Shown here: positions 11,777 to 58,080 of the stretch, piece by piece
Numbering within the stretch: position 1 is the first letter of the stretch
Layout of the letters: each line of letters begins with the position of its first letter
NCBI GenBank assembly: GCA_002722885.1
Contig: PBNE01000013.1
Location: 350,831-414,830 of the forward strand
Length of the DNA stretch: 64,000 nucleotides
DNA from: Rhodospirillaceae bacterium
GTDB lineage: Bacteria > Pseudomonadota > Alphaproteobacteria > SP197
Reading direction: 5' to 3'
The notes under the pieces: generated by a model
The model's input: the letters and a program-made list of their open reading frames with translations, nothing else
The model's database searches: none
What the model was told of the DNA's origin: nothing
Translations under genes and position numbers: made by a program

Positions 11777-12202
11777 CTAGGCCCTGTAGAGCTGGTCCCA
11801 GAGGAAAATTGTGCAGATTTCGAAGGCGAGCAGCGCATAAAGCAGCGTTGTAATCACCTCGATCGGGGTGCAGGCGAACAGAGTCAGACGGCCCTGATCG
11901 TCACGTCCGAACAGCGGCGGCGCGTGTTCCGGGGTGCCGCGAATCACCAGGATCACGATCAGCGGAACAAGGCCCATAAGGAACGCGAACGGGGCCAGGA
12001 CACTGAGATCAAGCCACGGGAAGTACCGGCTGGCACCGAACATGGCGGCCGGTACGACGGACCAAAAGAAGCCCATGTTGGCCAGAAACTCGGGATTCAT
12101 CTCGGTCGACTTGCCGAATCCGCGGCACAGCATCGCGAACACTGCCGCGAGCACGAATCCACAAAAGAGCCAGACAGCCAGTCCGGTTTCAGAAAACTCC
12201 AT
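11777..12202 (-). CDS. Small multi-pass membrane protein of unknown function
   Basis: A 141-residue protein with about four hydrophobic helices: residues 6-24 (LAVWLFCGFVLAAVF), 43-57, 66-87 (VLAPFAFLMGLVPLIVILVI) and 117-135. A polar loop of about 25 residues (TPEHAPPLFGRDDQGR) precedes the last helix. An ATG at 12280 is in frame, but the stretch before residue 27 looks non-coding; the ATG at 12202 starts directly with the soluble N terminus MEFSETG. No family is recognised. It stands alone between an SDR gene and the rplU promoter. Confidence 0.6.
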   Translation of the reverse strand: MEFSETGLAVWLFCGFVLAAVFAMLCRGFGKSTEMNPEFLANMGFFWSVVPAAMFGASRYFPWLDLSVLAPFAFLMGLVPLIVILVIRGTPEHAPPLFGRDDQGRLTLFACTPIEVITTLLYALLAFEICTIFLWDQLYRA

Positions 12203-12295
12203 GATGAAAGCCCTGTTCCTGCTTTTGTTGCACGGCGCCCTGCGCTGATTATAGGAGCCAGCCACGGTCAGGCGCAACAAGCCCGGCGAAATCGC

Positions 12296-13051
12296 TCATC
12301 CGCGTCCAATATACGGCATTGTGTTCGACATTACGGTCATGAAGGGGACATTGGCGTCGAGCGGCATGTTGGCCATCAGCACGATGGAGCGCACCACATT
12401 GTCCACGTCCATGGTGGTTTCGGGCACGATACGACCGTCGGGCTGTTCAAGACCGTCACCGGACCCCGCAGTCATATCGGTCAGCGCGTTGCCGATATCA
12501 ATCTGGCCGCAGCAGATGTTGTCGGCGCGGCCATCGAGCGACGTGGAACGTGTCAGGCCGGAAATGGCGTGTTTGGTTGCTGTGTAGGGTGCTGAGCGCG
12601 GCCGCGGCACATGGGCTGAGATCGAGCCGTTGTTTACAATCCGACCGCCCTTAGGGGTCTGGGCCTTCATGATCCTCATGGCGTGCTGGGTACACAGGAA
12701 CGGACCGGTTAGATTGGTGTCGACCACCCGCTGCCATTGCTCGAAAGACAGGTCTTCCATGGGCACATCCGGCGCGCCGATGCCGGCGTTGTTGAATAAC
12801 AGGTCAAGCCTGCCCCACCTGTCTTCGACGGCCTTAAAGAGCATCGCGACCGAACCGGGGTCACCGACGTCGCAACGCACGGCCATCAGACGATCAGGTT
12901 CGGCGTGGCCGTCGACCACGGCATCGAGTTTTTCCTGGGTACGCCCGGCCAGAGCGACGTGGAAGCCGTCGTCTGTCAGACCCAGAGCAACGGCGCGTCC
13001 GATTCCTGTGCCTGCGCCGGTCACCACGGCCACCCTTAGACTGTCGGTCAT
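12296..13051 (-). CDS. SDR-family oxidoreductase
   Basis: A 251-residue short-chain dehydrogenase with the cofactor loop TGAGTGIGR at residues 11-19, the NNAG strand and a catalytic Ser...YTATK set. A C-terminal stretch ([23 protein letters not shown]) resembles classical SDRs acting on small hydroxyacids or polyols. The start at 13051 is supported by GGAGAG six bases upstream; longer in-frame extensions to 13375 have no such signal. It stands alone, and the substrate is unknown. Confidence 0.8.
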
Positions 13052-14072: not shown

Positions 14073-15815
14073 TTACGTTTGTCTGAGAATATCTTCTGCG
14101 ATCTTTTCACCGATCATAATGGCTGTGAGGTTGGTTGTGGCGCGCACGATGACCGGCATGATCGAGGCGTCGGCCACACGCAGCCCTCCGACGCCACGAA
14201 CTCGCCCGGCGGTGTCGACAACGGTGTTGGGATCATCGGGCGCACCCATGCGGCAGGTGCCGACAGGGTGAAAGAAGCCCGTGATGTTGTCGCGCAGCCA
14301 TGCCTCAAGCGTCGCATCATCGGCGACCAGAGAATCAAGCTCCGTGTCCCCGGCCACGACATGGCGCATCAGCCAGTCGCGCAGCGGGGCGGGACCGTCG
14401 AGCAGAGCTGCACCGACCGAGGAGCGGAGGGCGTTGGTTTTCGTGTACGTGCTGAGCTGGCGGATGTGGTGTGTGAACGAGCCGCCGAAACAATGAGTGG
14501 CAAGCGCGCTGATGCCGGGTTGCCGCAGCAGCTCGGCAGCAAACCGCATGCCGGTCTTGGCTCGTTCGAGGTCTCGGGTATCACCAAAGGCGTCGTATCG
14601 GATAGAGGGCAGGTCTTGGTCGTGCGGTGACAACAGACTGATCCGGCCGCGCGAGAATGGACGCATGATCACCACAAACAGGCCGCCGATCTGTTCGCCG
14701 ACGGCGTGCCATCCCACCTTGTTGGCGATGGGCATGTACATATCGAGCGGCGGGCAACCCTCGAGCCCGGACGAAAAGAACAGTCCGGCATTGGCATGCG
14801 GTCTGAGATAGGGAATCTGCCGGGCGGATCTCTTCAGGTGGGCCGCGGCGGCGAAGGTCGGATGATCGTGGAGATTGCGGCCCACCCCCGGAACATCGGC
14901 GTGAACGTCGATTCCCAGGCCTGTGAGCTCGTCGCCCGGCCCGATGCCTGATCGCATCAGCAGCACCGGTGACCGTAGGGCGCCGGCCGTCACGACGACG
15001 TTGCTCGCCGTCACGTTTTCGCTTTGGCCGTTGCGTTCGATCTCGACACCGGTTGCGCGCCGGTTCTCCGTAATGATTCGCACGACGGTGGTTTCGGGAA
15101 GGATGGTGAGGTTGGGTCTGTGCCGGACCTTGGTGTCGAGGTAGCCCATGGCAGCGGACACGCGCTGGGTTTCCAGATTCGACATGGGAACCCGCCCGAC
15201 GCCTGCCCGGCCGCTGCCATTTACATCGTCGACATAGAGGTGACCGCGTGCGGCAAGTTCCTGGGCGACGGCCTTTACAAAGGGCGGCCAGTCTTCGCGC
15301 CGGTGACGCCGTACGGGAATCGGACCGTCGGAACCGTGGTTGTTGTTCCTGAAATCGAGATCGCGCTCCAGGCGGCGGTAGTGGGGCAGGACGTCATCCC
15401 AGGACCAGCCGGTGGCGCCGGCTGCGACCCAGTCGTCGAAGTCTTCCTTCAGCCCCCGCAGCGCGACCATGGCATTCACACTCGAGCCGCCGCCCATAAC
15501 ACGGCCTTGCTCATAGAAGCTCTCGGTGTGCGCGGCTTCGCCGTCGCGCGGCTCCAGCCACCGGACCCGCGTGTCGGGCCAGAGGTTCTCGTCGACATAA
15601 GCTGCCGTATAGAAGGTGTCGCGGATGGTCTCGGGCTCGGTGCCGGGCTCGAAATCGCGACCGGCCTCGATCAGCAGGACGCGGTTGGAGGGACGAGCCG
15701 AGAGCCGGTTCGCCAGGACACAGCCGGCGGCGCCACCACCGACAACGATGTAATCGTGATCAGGCAGCGAGCTTGCGGGCGATGTAACGCCCGAAATGCA
15801 TATTGGTGGTTTCAA
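14073..15815 (-). CDS. GMC-family FAD oxidoreductase
   Basis: GMC enzymes oxidise alcohols, such as choline, to aldehydes with FAD. The dinucleotide loop VGGGAAGCVLANRLS, the second signature GRVMGGGSSVNAMVALRG and the active-site FFHPVGTCRMG are all present. The only conventional start before the FAD loop is a TTG at 15815, inside the Rieske gene (56-base overlap); a CTG at the Rieske stop is also possible, so the start is uncertain. The overlap implies that the GMC and Rieske enzymes are co-translated and act in one pathway. The substrate is unknown. Confidence 0.85.
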   Translation of the reverse strand: MKPPICISGVTSPASSLPDHDYIVVGGGAAGCVLANRLSARPSNRVLLIEAGRDFEPGTEPETIRDTFYTAAYVDENLWPDTRVRWLEPRDGEAAHTESFYEQGRVMGGGSSVNAMVALRGLKEDFDDWVAAGATGWSWDDVLPHYRRLERDLDFRNNNHGSDGPIPVRRHRREDWPPFVKAVAQELAARGHLYVDDVNGSGRAGVGRVPMSNLETQRVSAAMGYLDTKVRHRPNLTILPETTVVRIITENRRATGVEIERNGQSENVTASNVVVTAGALRSPVLLMRSGIGPGDELTGLGIDVHADVPGVGRNLHDHPTFAAAAHLKRSARQIPYLRPHANAGLFFSSGLEGCPPLDMYMPIANKVGWHAVGEQIGGLFVVIMRPFSRGRISLLSPHDQDLPSIRYDAFGDTRDLERAKTGMRFAAELLRQPGISALATHCFGGSFTHHIRQLSTYTKTNALRSSVGAALLDGPAPLRDWLMRHVVAGDTELDSLVADDATLEAWLRDNITGFFHPVGTCRMGAPDDPNTVVDTAGRVRGVGGLRVADASIMPVIVRATTNLTAIMIGEKIAEDILRQT

Positions 15816-51546: not shown

Positions 51547-52745
51547 CTACTTCTGCCGCTCGTATTCCTCCGGGGAGAGGTCTGCGGCGAAAGTGTCGAG
51601 CCGAAGGCCAAACGTTCGGGGGCTCAACCTGCCTTCGTCCAGCATGCCGTTGTAGCGGGTGCGCATGACCTCCTTCTTTGTCTTGTGGTGCTCCTGCGCG
51701 GATCGACCCCCCGGGTGATCGTGAGATATCCCACCTCTTCAGCCGCATCGATCAGGTTCATACCAGCCTTCGTGCGAACAATGCAGTGTTCGTGCCCTTG
51801 GCCGTCTTCGGCTGATCATAATATGGGATGCCGTCGACTGTTTCGTCGCATGCGGCGATATCGGCGTCGTCGCCGGGTCCGTTCGGGCAGACCTTGCAAC
51901 GGAATGGCAGTTGCCAGTCGGCTTCGTCGAGGCCGCCATAGGATTCGTACATGTTGGTGGTGAAGAATGCGCCGTCCGTGGTCTCGAACTCGACCTCATC
52001 GGGGATGCCGTCACCGCGGCACTTGAACCAGGCGAGGTCGTGACGGGTGTACGAGCGGCGGGCCAGGAACTTGTCCATTTCGGGCGGTTTCACCATGCCG
52101 CCGCACACTGGCGTGAGCCAATAGCGCAGCAGGGCATCGACCCGGTCGTCGAAGCGGGCTTAGGCGCGCAGAGCCGAGATGTCGCAGGGTTTGCCGATAA
52201 AGGCGAAGGGCTCGCCAAGTTCAAGCACGGTTCGGATGTCAGTCAGCACCGGCGATGGTCCGTAGATCGAACCCATGCCGTTCGCCACCTTATCGGGGTC
52301 GTCGGCCACATTGGCGACGCCGAAGGTCTTGTCATCGTCTGAGAAACGCGCGTTGTGCACGAAGGCCACGCGTCTGCTTTCGACGAGATAGCGGCCCAGC
52401 GCGGTCAGCACCCCGCCGGAGGCGGCGGGCACTCGGATCGCACCGTCGGGTGGCGAAGCCGCTGAACATACGCCGGTAGGGGTCGATTGCGGTGCCGTCA
52501 TCGATCAGGTGCTCCGGCAGACTCTCAAGCCGCAGGCCAGGACAGGTGTCGTAGATCAGATCGACTGTCTCCTGATCGAGGGCTCCCGTGACCACCGGCC
52601 GCTGGTAGCCGTTTTCGACTGTCACGACTTCAACGCTGTCCCGGCCGGCGATGCTCTCGCACAAACCGCAGCCGATGCAGAGACCGTCTTCGACGATCCG
52701 CTAGAGACGTTCCTCCGGTGTGACGGCCTGTGTCATCTGCCTCAT
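51547..52745 (-). pseudogene. Decayed FrhB-type Fe-S oxidoreductase
   Basis: The pieces read as one coenzyme F420 hydrogenase/dehydrogenase beta-subunit-like protein of about 390 residues. The start MRQMTQAVTPEERL hits a TAG, then RIVEDGLCIGCGLCESIAG continues with a [4Fe-4S] motif. A frameshift near 52450, a TAA at 52160-52162 after SALRA, another shift near 51780 and one near 51715 follow; the last part ends SPEEYERQK at 51547. Between breaks the protein is well kept, so the decay is recent. It lies directly downstream of a tautomerase gene. Confidence 0.85.
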
Positions 52746-53125: not shown

Positions 53126-54337
53126 ATGACTGGAGCACTCTCCGGCGTCACCGTGCTGGACCTGACACAAATGATGTCGGGGCCGTTCTGCACTATGATG
53201 CTTGCCGACCAGGGAGCTGACGTCATCAAGATCGAGCCACCGACGGGTGAGGTCGCCCGAGGCTATGGTCCTTTTCTGGATGATGATGAGGACCGGCACT
53301 ACGGCGGTTACTTTCAGAGCATCAACCGCAACAAACGTTCGATCTCGATTGACCTGAAAACCGAAGCGGGCTGCGCGGTGTTTCGGCGGCTGGTGGCCGA
53401 TGCCGATGTCGTGATCGAGAACTTTCGCGCCGGCGTCATGGAAAGGCTTGGTCTGCCCTATGAAGACCTTGCAGCGATCAACCCACGCCTTGTTTATGCG
53501 ACGATCCGCGGCTTCGGAGATTCACGGGCCGGGATCAGTCCCTATCAGGACTGGCCGGCCTACGACATCGTGGCCCAGGCCATGGGCGGCCTCATGCACA
53601 TGACGGGCCCCGAAGAGGGACCGCCCACCAAGGTGGGGCCTGGTGTCGGCGACACCGTCACCGCGATGTTCACGGCCTTCGGTGTTCTTGCTGCTGTGAT
53701 CCAGGCGCGCGAATCCGGCAAGGGCCAATTTGTCGACGTTGCTATGCTGGATTCGATCTTCGCGCTGTGCGAACGCGCGGCGACCTTTCATGGCTACGAC
53801 GGTTCCATCGCCGGAGCCGTGGGCAACCATCACCCCTTTTTCACCCCGTTCGGCACCTATCCCTGCCGGGATGGCTGGGTTGCGATCGGCTGCCCCGTCG
53901 ACCGGTTCTGGACCGAGCTGGCGCGCCTGATGGGTGATCCGGAAATCGGCAGCGACCCACGTTACGCCGCCAACGACGAACGGGTCGCCCGACGCCAGGA
54001 GGTTGATGCCATCGTCACGAATTGGACCCGTGATCGTACCAAGGCCGAGCTGGCCGACCTGATTGGCGGCAAAGTTCCGTTTGGCCCCGTCAACAACATC
54101 GGTGACCTGGCCGATGATCCGCACCTTGCGGCCCGCTCCATGCTGGCGGAGTTGCCGCATCCGGGCTCCGAGCGCACCGTCACCGTCGCAAACACGCCGA
54201 TCAAGCTGACCGGGACGCCAGGCGGTGCAAGACGACAGGCGCCAACACTGGGTGAAGATACCGATATCGTGCTCAGGAACGCGGGCTATGCCGATGACGA
54301 GATCGCCGCGATGCGGGAGGCAGGAACCGTCAGGTAG
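53126..54337 (+). CDS. CaiB/BaiF-type CoA transferase
   Basis: A 403-residue Family III CoA transferase: VTVLDLTQMMSGPFCTMMLADQGADVIKIE at the start, NRNKRSISIDLK, VVIENFRAGVMERLG and the catalytic Asp D176 in GPGVGDTVTAMF. Such enzymes move CoA between small acids; CaiB acts on carnitine and crotonobetaine. With CaiD in the window, a carnitine role is possible, but formyl-, succinyl- and other acceptors cannot be ruled out. It starts at ATG 53126 after AGGGA. Its last bases overlap a decayed minus-strand frame. Confidence 0.86.
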   Translation: MTGALSGVTVLDLTQMMSGPFCTMMLADQGADVIKIEPPTGEVARGYGPFLDDDEDRHYGGYFQSINRNKRSISIDLKTEAGCAVFRRLVADADVVIENFRAGVMERLGLPYEDLAAINPRLVYATIRGFGDSRAGISPYQDWPAYDIVAQAMGGLMHMTGPEEGPPTKVGPGVGDTVTAMFTAFGVLAAVIQARESGKGQFVDVAMLDSIFALCERAATFHGYDGSIAGAVGNHHPFFTPFGTYPCRDGWVAIGCPVDRFWTELARLMGDPEIGSDPRYAANDERVARRQEVDAIVTNWTRDRTKAELADLIGGKVPFGPVNNIGDLADDPHLAARSMLAELPHPGSERTVTVANTPIKLTGTPGGARRQAPTLGEDTDIVLRNAGYADDEIAAMREAGTVR

Positions 54338-54707
54338 CCGTTGCTCCATCGTCATCAACGACGCGGATGGTTTGGCAGGAGCAGTTGGTGGCGTGCCGAA
54401 GAGTCCAGGACCGGATCTCTTCGAGCATGCGCGTTGATCTGGGCCCCGGTGACAACAGCTTGTCGATGACCAGAACACGCTTCTCGAACGTGTCCTGATC
54501 GACGCTGTAGTGGAACAGGCTGCGCATGTAGTCCTTGGTATCGCTGACGAAAGCCCAGCCGCAGACGTTATCGTTGCGGCACTGGCCGACCCGCCAGCGT
54601 CAGGCTTCCAGACAGGTGATGCCGTCATCAAGGCGGGCCAGCGCGTAGGCCTGCTCAATGTGTTGCTCGTCAAGCCGGCGGACCGAGAGGGTCTTGTCCC
54701 TGTCCAT
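54330..54707 (-). pseudogene. Possible acetyltransferase remnant with in-frame TGA
   Basis: A minus-strand frame starts at ATG 54707 (MDRDKTLSVRRLDEQHIEQA), is cut by TGA at 54600-54602 just after TCLEA, and continues in the same frame (WAFVSDTKDYMRSLFHYSV, LVIDKLLSPG) to a stop at 54330-54332. The pattern, with a hydrophobic strand then DTFEKRVLVIDKL, is like a GNAT acetyltransferase, but the match is weak. A W-to-stop change would explain it. It could also be two small unrelated frames. The FNR-type box at 54741-54754 lies upstream. Confidence 0.45.
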
Positions 54708-54740
54708 GCCGGAGCATGGGCGCGGCTCGGTTCAGCAACC

Positions 54741-54754
54741 TTGATTCATGTCAA
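54741..54754. promoter_or_regulatory. FNR-type anaerobox before the broken fnr gene
   Basis: TTGATTCATGTCAA matches the FNR/FixK box TTGAT-N4-ATCAA at nine of ten positions. It lies between the minus-strand frame ending at 54330 and the fnr pseudogene starting at 54837, where self-regulation of fnr would be expected. Confidence 0.65.
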
Positions 54755-54836
54755 GCAATTGGCAAAGTAGCCAACGGGCATGTGTCGCCCGATCGAAGCA
54801 CCGCTGATTCGGCCGCCGCATGGTTCAGGAGAGTCG

Positions 54837-55558
54837 ATGTTGCGTTTTCAGATCCTGCCGGAGGCTGTCGAGGCCAGCGATTGCACGCTGATGCCCTGTG
54901 CGGCCTGCGACGTCCGCGAAATGGCGGTCTGTTCCGTGCTCCAACGCACGGAGTTTGATCATCTCACGCGCATTGTCGCCAGGGTTCCCGTCGCCTCGGG
55001 GTAGACGATTTTCCAGGAAGGCGATGACGCCGAGCATGTGTTCAACATCGTCAGCGGTGCGGTGCGCCTGTTCAAGCTGTTGCCGGATCGTCGACGCCAG
55101 ATCACGGGCTTTCTGTTCGACTCTGATTTTCTGGGTCTCGCACTGAAGGAACACTGCGCCTACAGCCCCGAGGCTGTGGTAGAAACGATTATCTGCCGCT
55201 TTCCTCGCGGCAAGCTGGAACGGCTCTTCGACGAGATGCGGAAACTTGAAAAACGGCTGCTCGACGAAGCATCCAACGAACTCATTGCGGCGCAGGATCA
55301 GATGCTCCTGTTGGGGCGTAAGACGGCGATCGAACGCTGTCGACGTTCCTGTTTGCCTTAGCCGAACGGCAGAACACAAACAACGTCACGTTGCCGATGA
55401 CCCGAACCGATGTGGTCAACTACCTCGGCCTCACAATCGAGACGGTGAGCCGGACATTCACCAAACTGCGCAAGAGCGGTGTGATCGACACGCCTGATGC
55501 CCATAGTTTGATCATCCTCGACCGAGACGGTCTGAATGACATGACCGAAGGCGAATAG
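54837..55558 (+). pseudogene. fnr: Decayed Fnr-type oxygen-sensing regulator
   Basis: The reading frame from ATG 54837 (AGGAG upstream) matches FnrL-type CRP/FNR proteins. The Fe-S cysteines C21-x2-C24-x7-C32 and the later Cys in TIICRFP are recognisable. A TAG at 55002-55004 replaces a Gln before TIFQEGDDAEHVFN. Near 55337 one base is lost (ER then CRRS instead of ERVSTFL), after which the DNA-binding part TRTDVVNYLGLTIETVSRTF follows in another frame to 55558. The regulator should be non-functional. Confidence 0.88.
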
Positions 55559-55562
55559 CGCT

Positions 55563-55701
55563 TCAATCCTCGTCGTGCAGAATCCGTACCGCCGCGCCTT
55601 CGAGATCGTCGTATTGTCCCGACCGCAGGCTTCACAGGAAAGCACAGAGCGCCACAAGACCAAGAGCCAGGGCGAGGCAGTAGCACGATCAGGCCGTCCA
55701 T
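55563..55701 (-). pseudogene. ccoS: Decayed cbb3 oxidase assembly gene ccoS
   Basis: CcoS is a protein of about 50 residues needed for cbb3 cytochrome oxidase assembly. The start MDGLIVLL is at 55701; after one frameshift come LALALGLVALCAFL, a TGA at 55632-55634 where Trp is expected, and then SLRSGQYDDLEGAAVRILHDED to a TGA at 55563. The pieces together match the full family. It overlaps the hemerythrin/ccoI frame by 13 bases, as ccoS normally does with ccoI. Confidence 0.8.
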
Positions 55702-56315
55702 GCGCGCCTCCGGGCCAGCCGCAGGGCATTGTCCACAACCGTCAGGGATGATGCCGACATGGCGATAGCGGCAATCAGCGGTGTGACGACACCGGCAATA
55801 GCCAAGGGCATCATCACAATGTTGTAGGCCAGAGACAGCGCGAAGTTCTGTGTCATCAGACGCCTTGCGCGACCGCCTGTTTCCAGCGCCAACAGGACCG
55901 GTGCCAACCGACGCTCTTGGAACACAGCATCGGCCGCATTCTGGCTGATGTCGGCTGCCGTCTGACCCGCGATCGCCTTGAGTGCTGCAACGAGGCGCTC
56001 ATGGAGCTCCATGTCGGTCTCATGCTCGGCCTCCAGCAGAACGATCAGCTCATCAAAGCCATCGTGCTCCGTGCTCCGTTCCCGCATGAGCAGAAAAAGA
56101 CCCTGCTCTTCATCGGCAATGTGCAGCGGTAGCTCGATTTCGAAGTAATCCAGGGTCATCGTCGCGGTTTCGACCGCTTCTTCGCCGGAACTGTCCTGCG
56201 CCAGCCTCTCCAGAGAGGTACAGATCAGACGCTGGCGGTCATGGTGGCCTTCCAGAAACTCGATCGGCCGCTTGACCTCCGGCAGTCTCGCCGGGCCGTT
56301 GCCCATGGGTTCCAT
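55689..56315 (-). CDS. Hemerythrin domain fused to the C-terminal end of CcoI
   Basis: A 208-residue open frame with AGGAGG eight bases before the ATG at 56315. Residues 1-115 form a hemerythrin-like domain (H24/H25, H65, E69, H98, D101). From about residue 117 the sequence is that of the last 90 residues of the cbb3 copper-transport ATPase CcoI/FixI: AADISQNAADAVFQERRLAPV, QNFALSLAYN and the last two helices. The ATPase core is missing, so it looks like a deletion that joined two genes in frame. It may be a fossil, or the hemerythrin part may still be used. Confidence 0.7.
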   Translation of the reverse strand: MEPMGNGPARLPEVKRPIEFLEGHHDRQRLICTSLERLAQDSSGEEAVETATMTLDYFEIELPLHIADEEQGLFLLMRERSTEHDGFDELIVLLEAEHETDMELHERLVAALKAIAGQTAADISQNAADAVFQERRLAPVLLALETGGRARRLMTQNFALSLAYNIVMMPLAIAGVVTPLIAAIAMSASSLTVVDNALRLARRRAWTA

Positions 56316-56370
56316 TACTGAATCCTCCTGTGGATTCAGAGCACCATAGTGGTGTCAGCTCCTGGTGAAC

Positions 56371-56384
56371 TTGACCTGCATCAA
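56371..56384. promoter_or_regulatory. FNR-type anaerobox before the hemerythrin/ccoI gene
   Basis: TTGACCTGCATCAA matches TTGAT-N4-ATCAA at nine of ten positions and lies 55 bases before the ATG at 56315, a usual distance for an FNR-activated promoter. The fnr gene next door is broken, so control would need another FNR/FixK protein. Confidence 0.6.
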
Positions 56385-56394
56385 ATGCGGTTTT

Positions 56395-58080
56395 TCAGGC
56401 CGCGTGGCTCAGGCGGCAGTAACAGGACGCCTTGATCGGCACGTCGGCGCGCGCCATGGCCAGAGTCAATGCGGGTTCGATCAACACGCGCTCGTCTTCC
56501 TTGCCCTGCCGTTTTAGGCATTCATGAAGGCCGTGCAGGCTCCACACGTTGTCGGGATGGCGCCGAGCGCGGATGACGCTGGGGTCATAGCCGAGATCGG
56601 CCCGATAAACGGCTTCAGCTTCCTCCAGGCGCCCCTGCTCCAGGGTCAGTGCGCCCAGGGCATGGCGGGCCGGCTGCATCCAGCCCCACGGCTCGTCATA
56701 GGGCAGCTCGTCTTCTCGCTTTACAGCGGTTCGCAGATGCTCGAACGCGAGGTCGTGGCTGCCCCTGCGGTACTCAATCTCGCCACGCAACATCGCGGCG
56801 GCGACGGCCAGGATGTCGAGGCAGGTGTTATTAAAGAGCGTCCTGCTTTCCGGTACGCGTGCGCGTGCGGCCTCGAACAGCTCGGCATGGCGCTCGCCTC
56901 CGGCGACGTCGCCGGACGCCGCATGGGCCACCGCCTTGGCGTAGTGGCAGATGGCCGTGGTGACGAGATAGAGATCGGGGTCGTGGGGCAGGGGCTCGTC
57001 GATGATGTCCTGCCAGCGGCCGAACCGGATTAGCGCGTGGTACTTCAGGCCGTAGTAGCCCTCCAGCATGTCGGCCATGGGCGGGCTTTCCATGCGGATC
57101 AGGGCTACAGGCACGGTGTCTTCGAACTCCCGCACGGCCTCCATCGCAGCGCCGTACTGCGCCAGGAACATGGCGCCATAAAGCTTGAAATGAATGTTGT
57201 GGATACGGGAGTATGAGAACAGGTTAAGCGGACCGACCTCTTCCAGAAGCTTGTTGTCGGCCACGATTGCTGCGGAGTTGCGCAGCAGGACATTGAAGTA
57301 GTGGCCGCACTGAAAATCGATATGGGTCGGCATGTGGTGCAGGTGACCGCAGTCGGGTACCAGGTTGCAGAGTTCGTCGCCGGCGCGCAGGGCGGCTTCC
57401 GGCCGCGGCGACATCTCCATGACGTGGATGTAGTAGTGCAGGAGACCGGCATGGCGTTCAGGCCCGCGCGCCTCGACCTTCGCGATGGCGCTTTCGAGAA
57501 CCTCGACCGCCTCGACCGTTGAAGCGCCCTCGCGCGGTTCACCGGTGTTGAGATCCCAGAGCTTCCAGGGCGTGCGTGACATGATGGCTTCGGCAAACAG
57601 CGATGCCACATCGGGGTTGTCCGGGTGCGCGTGATAGACCGTGCGCATCGCATCGGCATAAGCCTCGGTCCAGACCATGAAGTCATCTGGCGCTTCGTCC
57701 GACGGGTGACGCGCGGTCAGTGCTTCGATCAGGGCCTGTTCCAGCGGGCTGGCCTTGGTGTGCAGGGCCATGGCGTGCTGCGATGCACTATGGGTTTCCT
57801 TCAGGATGCGCGGCAGCTCGATCCGATCGAATTTGGTCCAGCCCCGGTTGTAGACCGGACCGCCGGCGTAACCCACGCCCCACCAAGCCATCGCGCAATC
57901 GGGATCGGCTTCGGTGGCACGCTTGAAGCAGCGCACGGCCTCTTCGTAGTTAAAGCCGTAGCACCAGGCGAGCCCGCGGTCGAACCACACCTGAGCCTCG
58001 GAATGCTGGGTGGTGACCGGCATCGTGTAGCTGCCGGTGTCGTAATAGGACTCCAAGACCGTTCTCCCGTTGATCTCCAA
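56395..58080 (-). CDS. Tetratricopeptide-repeat protein
   Basis: A 561-residue protein of TPR-type helical hairpins. EAQVWFDRGLAWCYGFNYEEAVRCFKRATEADPDCAMAWWGVG is a typical opening; repeats recur through FEARARGPERHAGLLHYYIHVMEMS and REGEIEYRRGSHDLAFEHLRTAV. Residues HLHHMPTHIDF near 250 are His-rich and may bind a metal. The frame opens at a TTG (58080); the following ESYYDTGSYTMPVTTQ is family-typical, so a start at M20 would be too late. The function is unknown. Confidence 0.75.
   Translation of the reverse strand: MEINGRTVLESYYDTGSYTMPVTTQHSEAQVWFDRGLAWCYGFNYEEAVRCFKRATEADPDCAMAWWGVGYAGGPVYNRGWTKFDRIELPRILKETHSASQHAMALHTKASPLEQALIEALTARHPSDEAPDDFMVWTEAYADAMRTVYHAHPDNPDVASLFAEAIMSRTPWKLWDLNTGEPREGASTVEAVEVLESAIAKVEARGPERHAGLLHYYIHVMEMSPRPEAALRAGDELCNLVPDCGHLHHMPTHIDFQCGHYFNVLLRNSAAIVADNKLLEEVGPLNLFSYSRIHNIHFKLYGAMFLAQYGAAMEAVREFEDTVPVALIRMESPPMADMLEGYYGLKYHALIRFGRWQDIIDEPLPHDPDLYLVTTAICHYAKAVAHAASGDVAGGERHAELFEAARARVPESRTLFNNTCLDILAVAAAMLRGEIEYRRGSHDLAFEHLRTAVKREDELPYDEPWGWMQPARHALGALTLEQGRLEEAEAVYRADLGYDPSVIRARRHPDNVWSLHGLHECLKRQGKEDERVLIEPALTLAMARADVPIKASCYCRLSHAA

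Follow-up and report, generated by a model that had tools for sequence, protein, structure and literature searches.

In silico analysis of a 64-kb window, the whole stretch of DNA considered here, from the genome of a Rhodospirillaceae bacterium (assembly GCA_002722885.1; contig PBNE01000013.1, positions 350,831 to 414,830) identified a block of broken genes matching parts of a cbb3-type cytochrome oxidase cluster and its Fnr-type regulator. Coordinates without a prefix refer to the window, C designates a contig and L a sampled locus stretch. The genome holding the window is termed G000 and its relatives G001 to G015; together they make up the order sample of 16 genomes, all from a single family. 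The features of the block are as follows:

54330 to 54707, minus strand: remnant of a small gene divergent from fnr, with an in-frame TGA at 54600-54602
54741 to 54754: FNR-type box TTGATTCATGTCAA, between the divergent small gene and fnr
54837 to 55558, plus strand: fnr pseudogene (Fnr-type regulator with N-terminal cysteines); ATG at 54837, TAG at 55002-55004, frame change near 55335, end at 55558
55563 to 55701, minus strand: ccoS (FixS) remnant; start at 55701, frame change near 55673, TGA at 55632-55634, end at 55563
55689 to 56315, minus strand: hemerythrin::CcoI chimera of 208 aa; hemerythrin residues 1 to ~117 followed by the last ~91 residues of CcoI, junction at ~55964
56371 to 56384: FNR-type box TTGACCTGCATCAA, 55 bases from the ATG of the chimera and taken as the box of the original hemerythrin promoter

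The fnr gene retains its cysteines but is not readable in one open frame, being interrupted by the TAG at 55002 and by the frame change ahead of the helix-turn-helix; its pieces are 77% and 68% identical to the Fnr of G003, with 1 TAG. The ccoS remnant scored 55.2 bits against PF03597, above the cut-off (C13:406399-406506), with 1 TGA. A preliminary description of this DNA had reported an amber codon and a frame lesion in fnr, together with a frameshift and a TGA in ccoS, and all four lesions were located here. The small gene is a fourth broken gene, new to this analysis. With its pieces kept apart in tblastn, the second piece matched G009 (E = 1.6e-12), G014 (6e-7), G003 (0.002) and G012 (0.005), and a divergent homolog lies upstream of fnr in G009, G012, G014 and G015; the homolog in G012 gave no Pfam match. 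Because the hemerythrin, CcoI and Fnr pieces are ~55-78% identical to genes from the same taxonomic order, with the same relative order and strands, the broken block is more than a chance assemblage.

When the chimera was aligned to homologs of each half, the switch between them fell at residue 117/118 (~55964), in agreement with the earlier statement that the last ~90 residues of CcoI are fused in frame to a hemerythrin domain. The N-terminal half matched PF01814 (hemerythrin) over residues 17-122 (39.4 bits, E = 1e-9), covering positions 2-103 of the 127-position profile vs. 2-127 in the hemerythrin of G002. The portion missing is the fourth HHE helix with its HxxxE pair, which carries RRHLAWEN in G002 and G005, and the chimera is therefore not a four-helix hemerythrin. 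The C-terminal part belongs to a P1B-type copper ATPase (TIGR01511; residues 110-200 against profile positions 446-541 of 542), and the nearest CcoI proteins in same-genus genomes, those of G005 and G009, are 70% identical to it. The CcoI remnant is without the phosphorylation and metal-entry parts of P1B-type ATPases. A match in L059 that seemed to span both halves (residues 12-204, 42%) turned out to be a normal CcoI whose alignment to the hemerythrin half was spurious, and a single-sequence structure model was too poor to use (mean predicted local distance difference test score, 43). The chimera occurred in only one of the 16 genomes of the order, and is not the widely conserved fusion that the preliminary description had named as evidence against its interpretation.

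Relatives show what once may have stood between the two halves. In G002, G012 and G015 the gene order is hemerythrin, formate/nitrite transporter, ccoN-O-P-G-H-I and then a convergent fnr (ccoQ was outside the search); the transporter of G012 matched PF01226 and its ccoH PF05751, while the transporter gene of G002 was recovered as two tblastn pieces. In G005 the block is divided between two contigs, with hemerythrin, the transporter and ccoN on one and the end of ccoP, ccoG, ccoH, ccoI, ccoS and fnr on the other; ccoO was not found in this genome. The view that ccoI and ccoS close the cbb3 cluster in relatives was thus borne out. Measured between hemerythrin residue 117 and the CcoI fusion point, the distance is ~8.3 kb in G002 and ~8.5 kb in both G012 and G015, so that a single deletion would suffice to take out the oxidase genes and most of ccoI. 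In relatives, the interval gone from G000 (~8.4 kb) holds the transporter, ccoN, O, P, G and H and most of ccoI, and the deletion of ccoI and preceding genes that had been suspected now has a size and a content. Collinearity with relatives and the disabling lesions together mark the G000 hem-cco-fnr locus as a deletion scar with pseudogenes. In G002, dense frame breaks run across the ccoI tail, ccoS, fnr and beyond (L040 14289-20000; G002:C37), adjoining open ccoP and ccoG genes. The breaks in fnr and in the ccoI tail are probably noise of that assembly, and G002 was for that reason not counted as decaying.

Traces of the former regulation were sought with the exact pattern TTGAYNNNNRTCAA, an FNR-type consensus. 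The window contained two such boxes, one ahead of fnr and one ahead of the chimera, and the other 386 kb of sampled G000 sequence contained none. Among relatives, a box preceded the hemerythrin gene at all four loci having that gene (G002, G005, G012, G015) and ccoN at 6/6 loci, and an exact box preceded fnr at six of the seven loci with fnr, the exception being L042 of G005. The ccoN box would have been lost along with the deletion.

A cbb3 oxidase elsewhere in the genome, which the preliminary description had proposed to look for, was not found: searches of G000 for FixO/CcoO, CcoG and bd oxidase subunit I were all negative, and its single COX1-family gene is CtaD, of the aa3 type (TIGR02891; 717 bits, cut-off 670.75). 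G000 accordingly has neither the CcoN and CcoO of a functional cbb3 oxidase nor intact ccoG, ccoI and ccoS, as only the tail of ccoI and the lesioned ccoS are left. No second Fnr-like O2 sensor was found either; the only other Fnr match at E ≤ 0.001 (C14:208246; 27%) is of the Crp type, and visual inspection of its N-terminal region showed no cysteine cluster resembling that of Fnr. Open Fnr frames were found in G003, G005, G009 and G012. The organism apparently relies today on a single aa3-type oxidase. As predicted from its gene content, loss of high-affinity O2 respiration is well supported for G000; the loss, suggested earlier for this lineage, does not extend to the whole group, since G003 and G005 keep cbb3 genes.

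These observations suggest the following history, to which we assign a probability of about 90%. The ancestor would have carried an FNR-controlled low-oxygen module consisting of hemerythrin, the formate/nitrite transporter and ccoN-O-P-G-H-I-S, with a convergent fnr and the divergent small gene. One deletion of ~8.4 kb, probably a single event, would have extended from within the hemerythrin gene far into ccoI, of which the last ~91 codons were spared, taking the oxidase and nearly all assembly genes and leaving an in-frame fusion of the stumps. The point mutations presumably came later: once the chief target of Fnr had disappeared, stops and frameshifts would have been free to accumulate in fnr, in the ccoS stump and in the small gene. 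The reverse order is conceivable, with damage to fnr coming first and shutting the operon down. In either order, what remains is a recent relic of a familiar type, still being eroded.

Several observations weigh against this history. G000 is a draft assembly (3.71 Mb, 23 contigs, completeness 98.56) with 8.66% contamination, and the cluster sits on broken contigs in G005 and G009. The ccoI matches of G005 lie in two frames that meet at L042 ~4048 (G005:C294), which may reflect an error of assembly or else a genuine break in a genome scored here as carrying cbb3 genes. No hemerythrin gene was recovered with the chimera as query from G003 or G014, both of which have cbb3 and fnr, and the gene order is therefore not universal. 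Genome-wide, G000 has six exact FNR-type boxes, the same number as G003. Within the genus, the five genomes without fnr had 4-8 boxes and those with fnr 6, 10, 13 and 17; as these counts do not cleanly separate the genomes, they were not used as evidence. Lastly, the fused open reading frame (ORF) has hardly decayed, being open and in frame with 0 departures at the 24 CcoI-tail columns conserved in ≥95% of 90 tails.

The draft status of G000, and noise in assemblies of relatives such as G002 (in L040, 22 of 27 raw frame switches fall at or beyond position 14289, and the second COX1 of G002 is fragmented), would fit an operon that is real but was collapsed or omitted during assembly, with base-calling errors producing the stops and frameshifts. 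Frame breaks were flagged by a codon-usage frame-switch scan (stricter penalties overlooked most breaks), and only rates were compared because normal overlapping genes are sometimes flagged as well. With three noisy stretches of G002 excluded (27 breaks in 60 kb), the scan flagged 49 breaks across 450 kb of G000 (2.2 per 20 kb) vs. 24 across 198 kb (2.4 per 20 kb) of G003, G004, G007 and G008 combined, so that G000 showed no excess. Within the window, breaks were concentrated at 51.7-55.4 kb, the densest cluster being four in 4.2 kb from 51699; the same density occurred once elsewhere in the sampled G000 sequence (L151), and the cluster is not unique. Both rpoB (1,378 codons) and ctaD (543 codons) are open in G000, and the fnr frame change lies outside any homopolymer (longest run, 2). 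Errors of this kind would need to have broken four adjoining genes, fused two stumps in frame and lost CcoO and CcoG although the genome is 98.6% complete, which makes an artifact improbable. The rpoB frame of G004, G006 and G007 has 1,618 codons and a family match in two parts, whereas that of G000 has one match.

We also considered whether the fused ORF has been retained as a new protein, for example as a membrane-anchored hemerythrin-like domain. For comparison, a set of CcoI tails was assembled by discarding matches with <45% identity, a short span or stops, leaving 107 loci and 90 distinct tails. In favor of retention, the 208 codons are open and in frame, all 24 of the best-conserved tail positions are kept, codon usage is still coding-like and an FNR-type box persists upstream. 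On the other hand, the tail departs at four columns conserved in ≥75%, three of which are covered by all 90 tails, hemerythrin helix 4 with its HxxxE pair is gone, the likely activator is broken and the chimera was seen in one genome only; a recent origin would explain the absence of decay equally well. Retention as a new protein is thus unlikely. In all likelihood the fusion is a by-product that has no function; the ORF was taken to be inert because it is without both the fourth hemerythrin helix and the catalytic parts of CcoI.

How far the decay has advanced was gauged from fnr. With its pieces treated separately, the remnant keeps 119 of the 127 columns that are invariant in six intact homologs and departs at eight. 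In leave-one-out comparisons, the intact genes of G003, G005 and G009 departed at 3/130, 8/135 and 2/129 columns, respectively, and G000 at 10, 9 and 8 columns of the same sets. Identities to the outgroup G012 over 237 positions numbered 142 for G000 vs. 152, 149 and 155 for G003, G005 and G009, and the G+C content at third codon positions was 0.70-0.79 in the G000 pieces vs. 0.73-0.82 in three intact genes. Relaxation looks slight and, with 119 of 127 invariant positions kept, the decay looks recent.

An rpoB tree of 15 genomes (some with partial rpoB; G002 gave no match, and G013-G015 were not included in the search) grouped G000 with G003, G008, G009 and G005 with a support of 0.96. Nodes within the group were weak (0.46, 0.68), except for G003 with G008 (0.985). 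The tree thereby joins G000 to relatives that carry the module, contrary to the idea that the module was never complete in G000 and that a fragment arrived by horizontal transfer. Such an origin could be entertained because the genes flanking the module vary among the species compared. Gene order, strands and promoter boxes are, however, the same as in relatives, and the fnr pieces are as near to the Fnr of G003 (181 identities over 237 positions) as are those of G005 (180) and G009 (186). We regard transfer as very improbable.

Two further genes lie near the scar. A coenzyme F420 hydrogenase/dehydrogenase beta-like gene (51758-52664, minus strand; PF04422, weak PF04432) is split over frames and is another broken gene, ~1.7 kb from the small-gene remnant. 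At 56395-58080 (minus strand), a tetratricopeptide repeat protein of 561 aa has a paralog with 58% identity in the same genome (C13:180239) and one to four matches in each of 9/9 same-genus relatives.

Across the 16 genomes, oxidase genes were present in six, the state of one was uncertain, two were scarred and seven showed no trace. The six were recognized by FixO in G002, G003, G012, G014 and G015 and by ccoN in G005. In the uncertain genome, G009, a 3.1-kb contig carries open copies of the ccoI end, of ccoS and of fnr, and the single COX1 match scores like CtaD genes; CcoO and CcoG were not found in this genome. FixO, FixS and CcoG were not found in G001, G004, G006, G007, G008, G010 and G011. 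Among the rpoB neighbors of G000, cbb3 genes are thus still found in G003 and G005 but not in G008. G008 has a second, distant COX1-family gene (G008:C1:2264159-2265493; 768-codon frame) ~1 kb from a Crp/Fnr-type match; the length of this gene suggests a putative quinol-type nitric oxide reductase.

The second scar lies on one draft contig of G013, a different genus of the same family (L048, G013:C1, ~11850-12680). It retains ~16 codons from the 3′ end of ccoP, ~84 from the 5′ end of ccoG (match 11924-12154), ~110 from the 3′ end of ccoI, in another frame (12199-12525), and an open ccoS (FixS; E = 1.1e-16), and FixO was not found in the G013 genome. Because the junctions of the two scars differ, the events appear to be independent, and the comparison suggests at least two separate losses in the family. 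A wider scenario, in which low-oxygen respiration was lost repeatedly and independently in the family through deletions that tend to spare the 3′ end (ccoI tail and ccoS), with one scar now expressed as a hemerythrin-membrane fusion, is tentative and as a whole rather doubtful.

The G000 locus shares with the known cbb3 operon (ccoNOQP-ccoGHIS under FnrL/FixK-type control) the end of ccoI, ccoS, the convergent fnr and the FNR-type boxes. It differs in that ccoN, O, P, G and H are absent from the locus, CcoO and CcoG are without a match genome-wide, lesions disrupt both ccoS and fnr, and ccoI is reduced to ~91 codons. A hemerythrin gene has been listed in one report among the genes responding to an FNR-type regulator along with the cco operon (PMC6446978). 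In G002, G005, G012 and G015, hemerythrin stands at the upstream end of the cco block and is preceded by an FNR-type box; the G000 copy lost its last helix through the fusion. The nearest precedent found is that of CHUG roseobacter populations, which, according to the accessible part of the report, differ by cbb3 and the FnrL gene while all retain aa3, and for which O2 uptake was measured in culture and O2 affinity found to differ (PMC9426536). In both cases near relatives differ by cbb3 and FnrL and keep aa3. A scar is not described in that part of the CHUG report, whereas in G000, known from sequence, the deletion junction and its decaying neighbors are visible. The titles and abstract openings surveyed in the literature on cbb3, Fnr, hemerythrin and oxidase gene loss did not describe such a scar.

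The event itself is of an ordinary kind, but the view of it is unusually clear and is strengthened by the second scar in the family. Loss of a whole operon is usually visible only as absence; here the junction, the stranded regulator and the operator-like boxes reveal both the route and the recency of the loss, and the scar of a related genus, with its different construction, offers a way to test within one family whether microaerobic respiration has been lost repeatedly.

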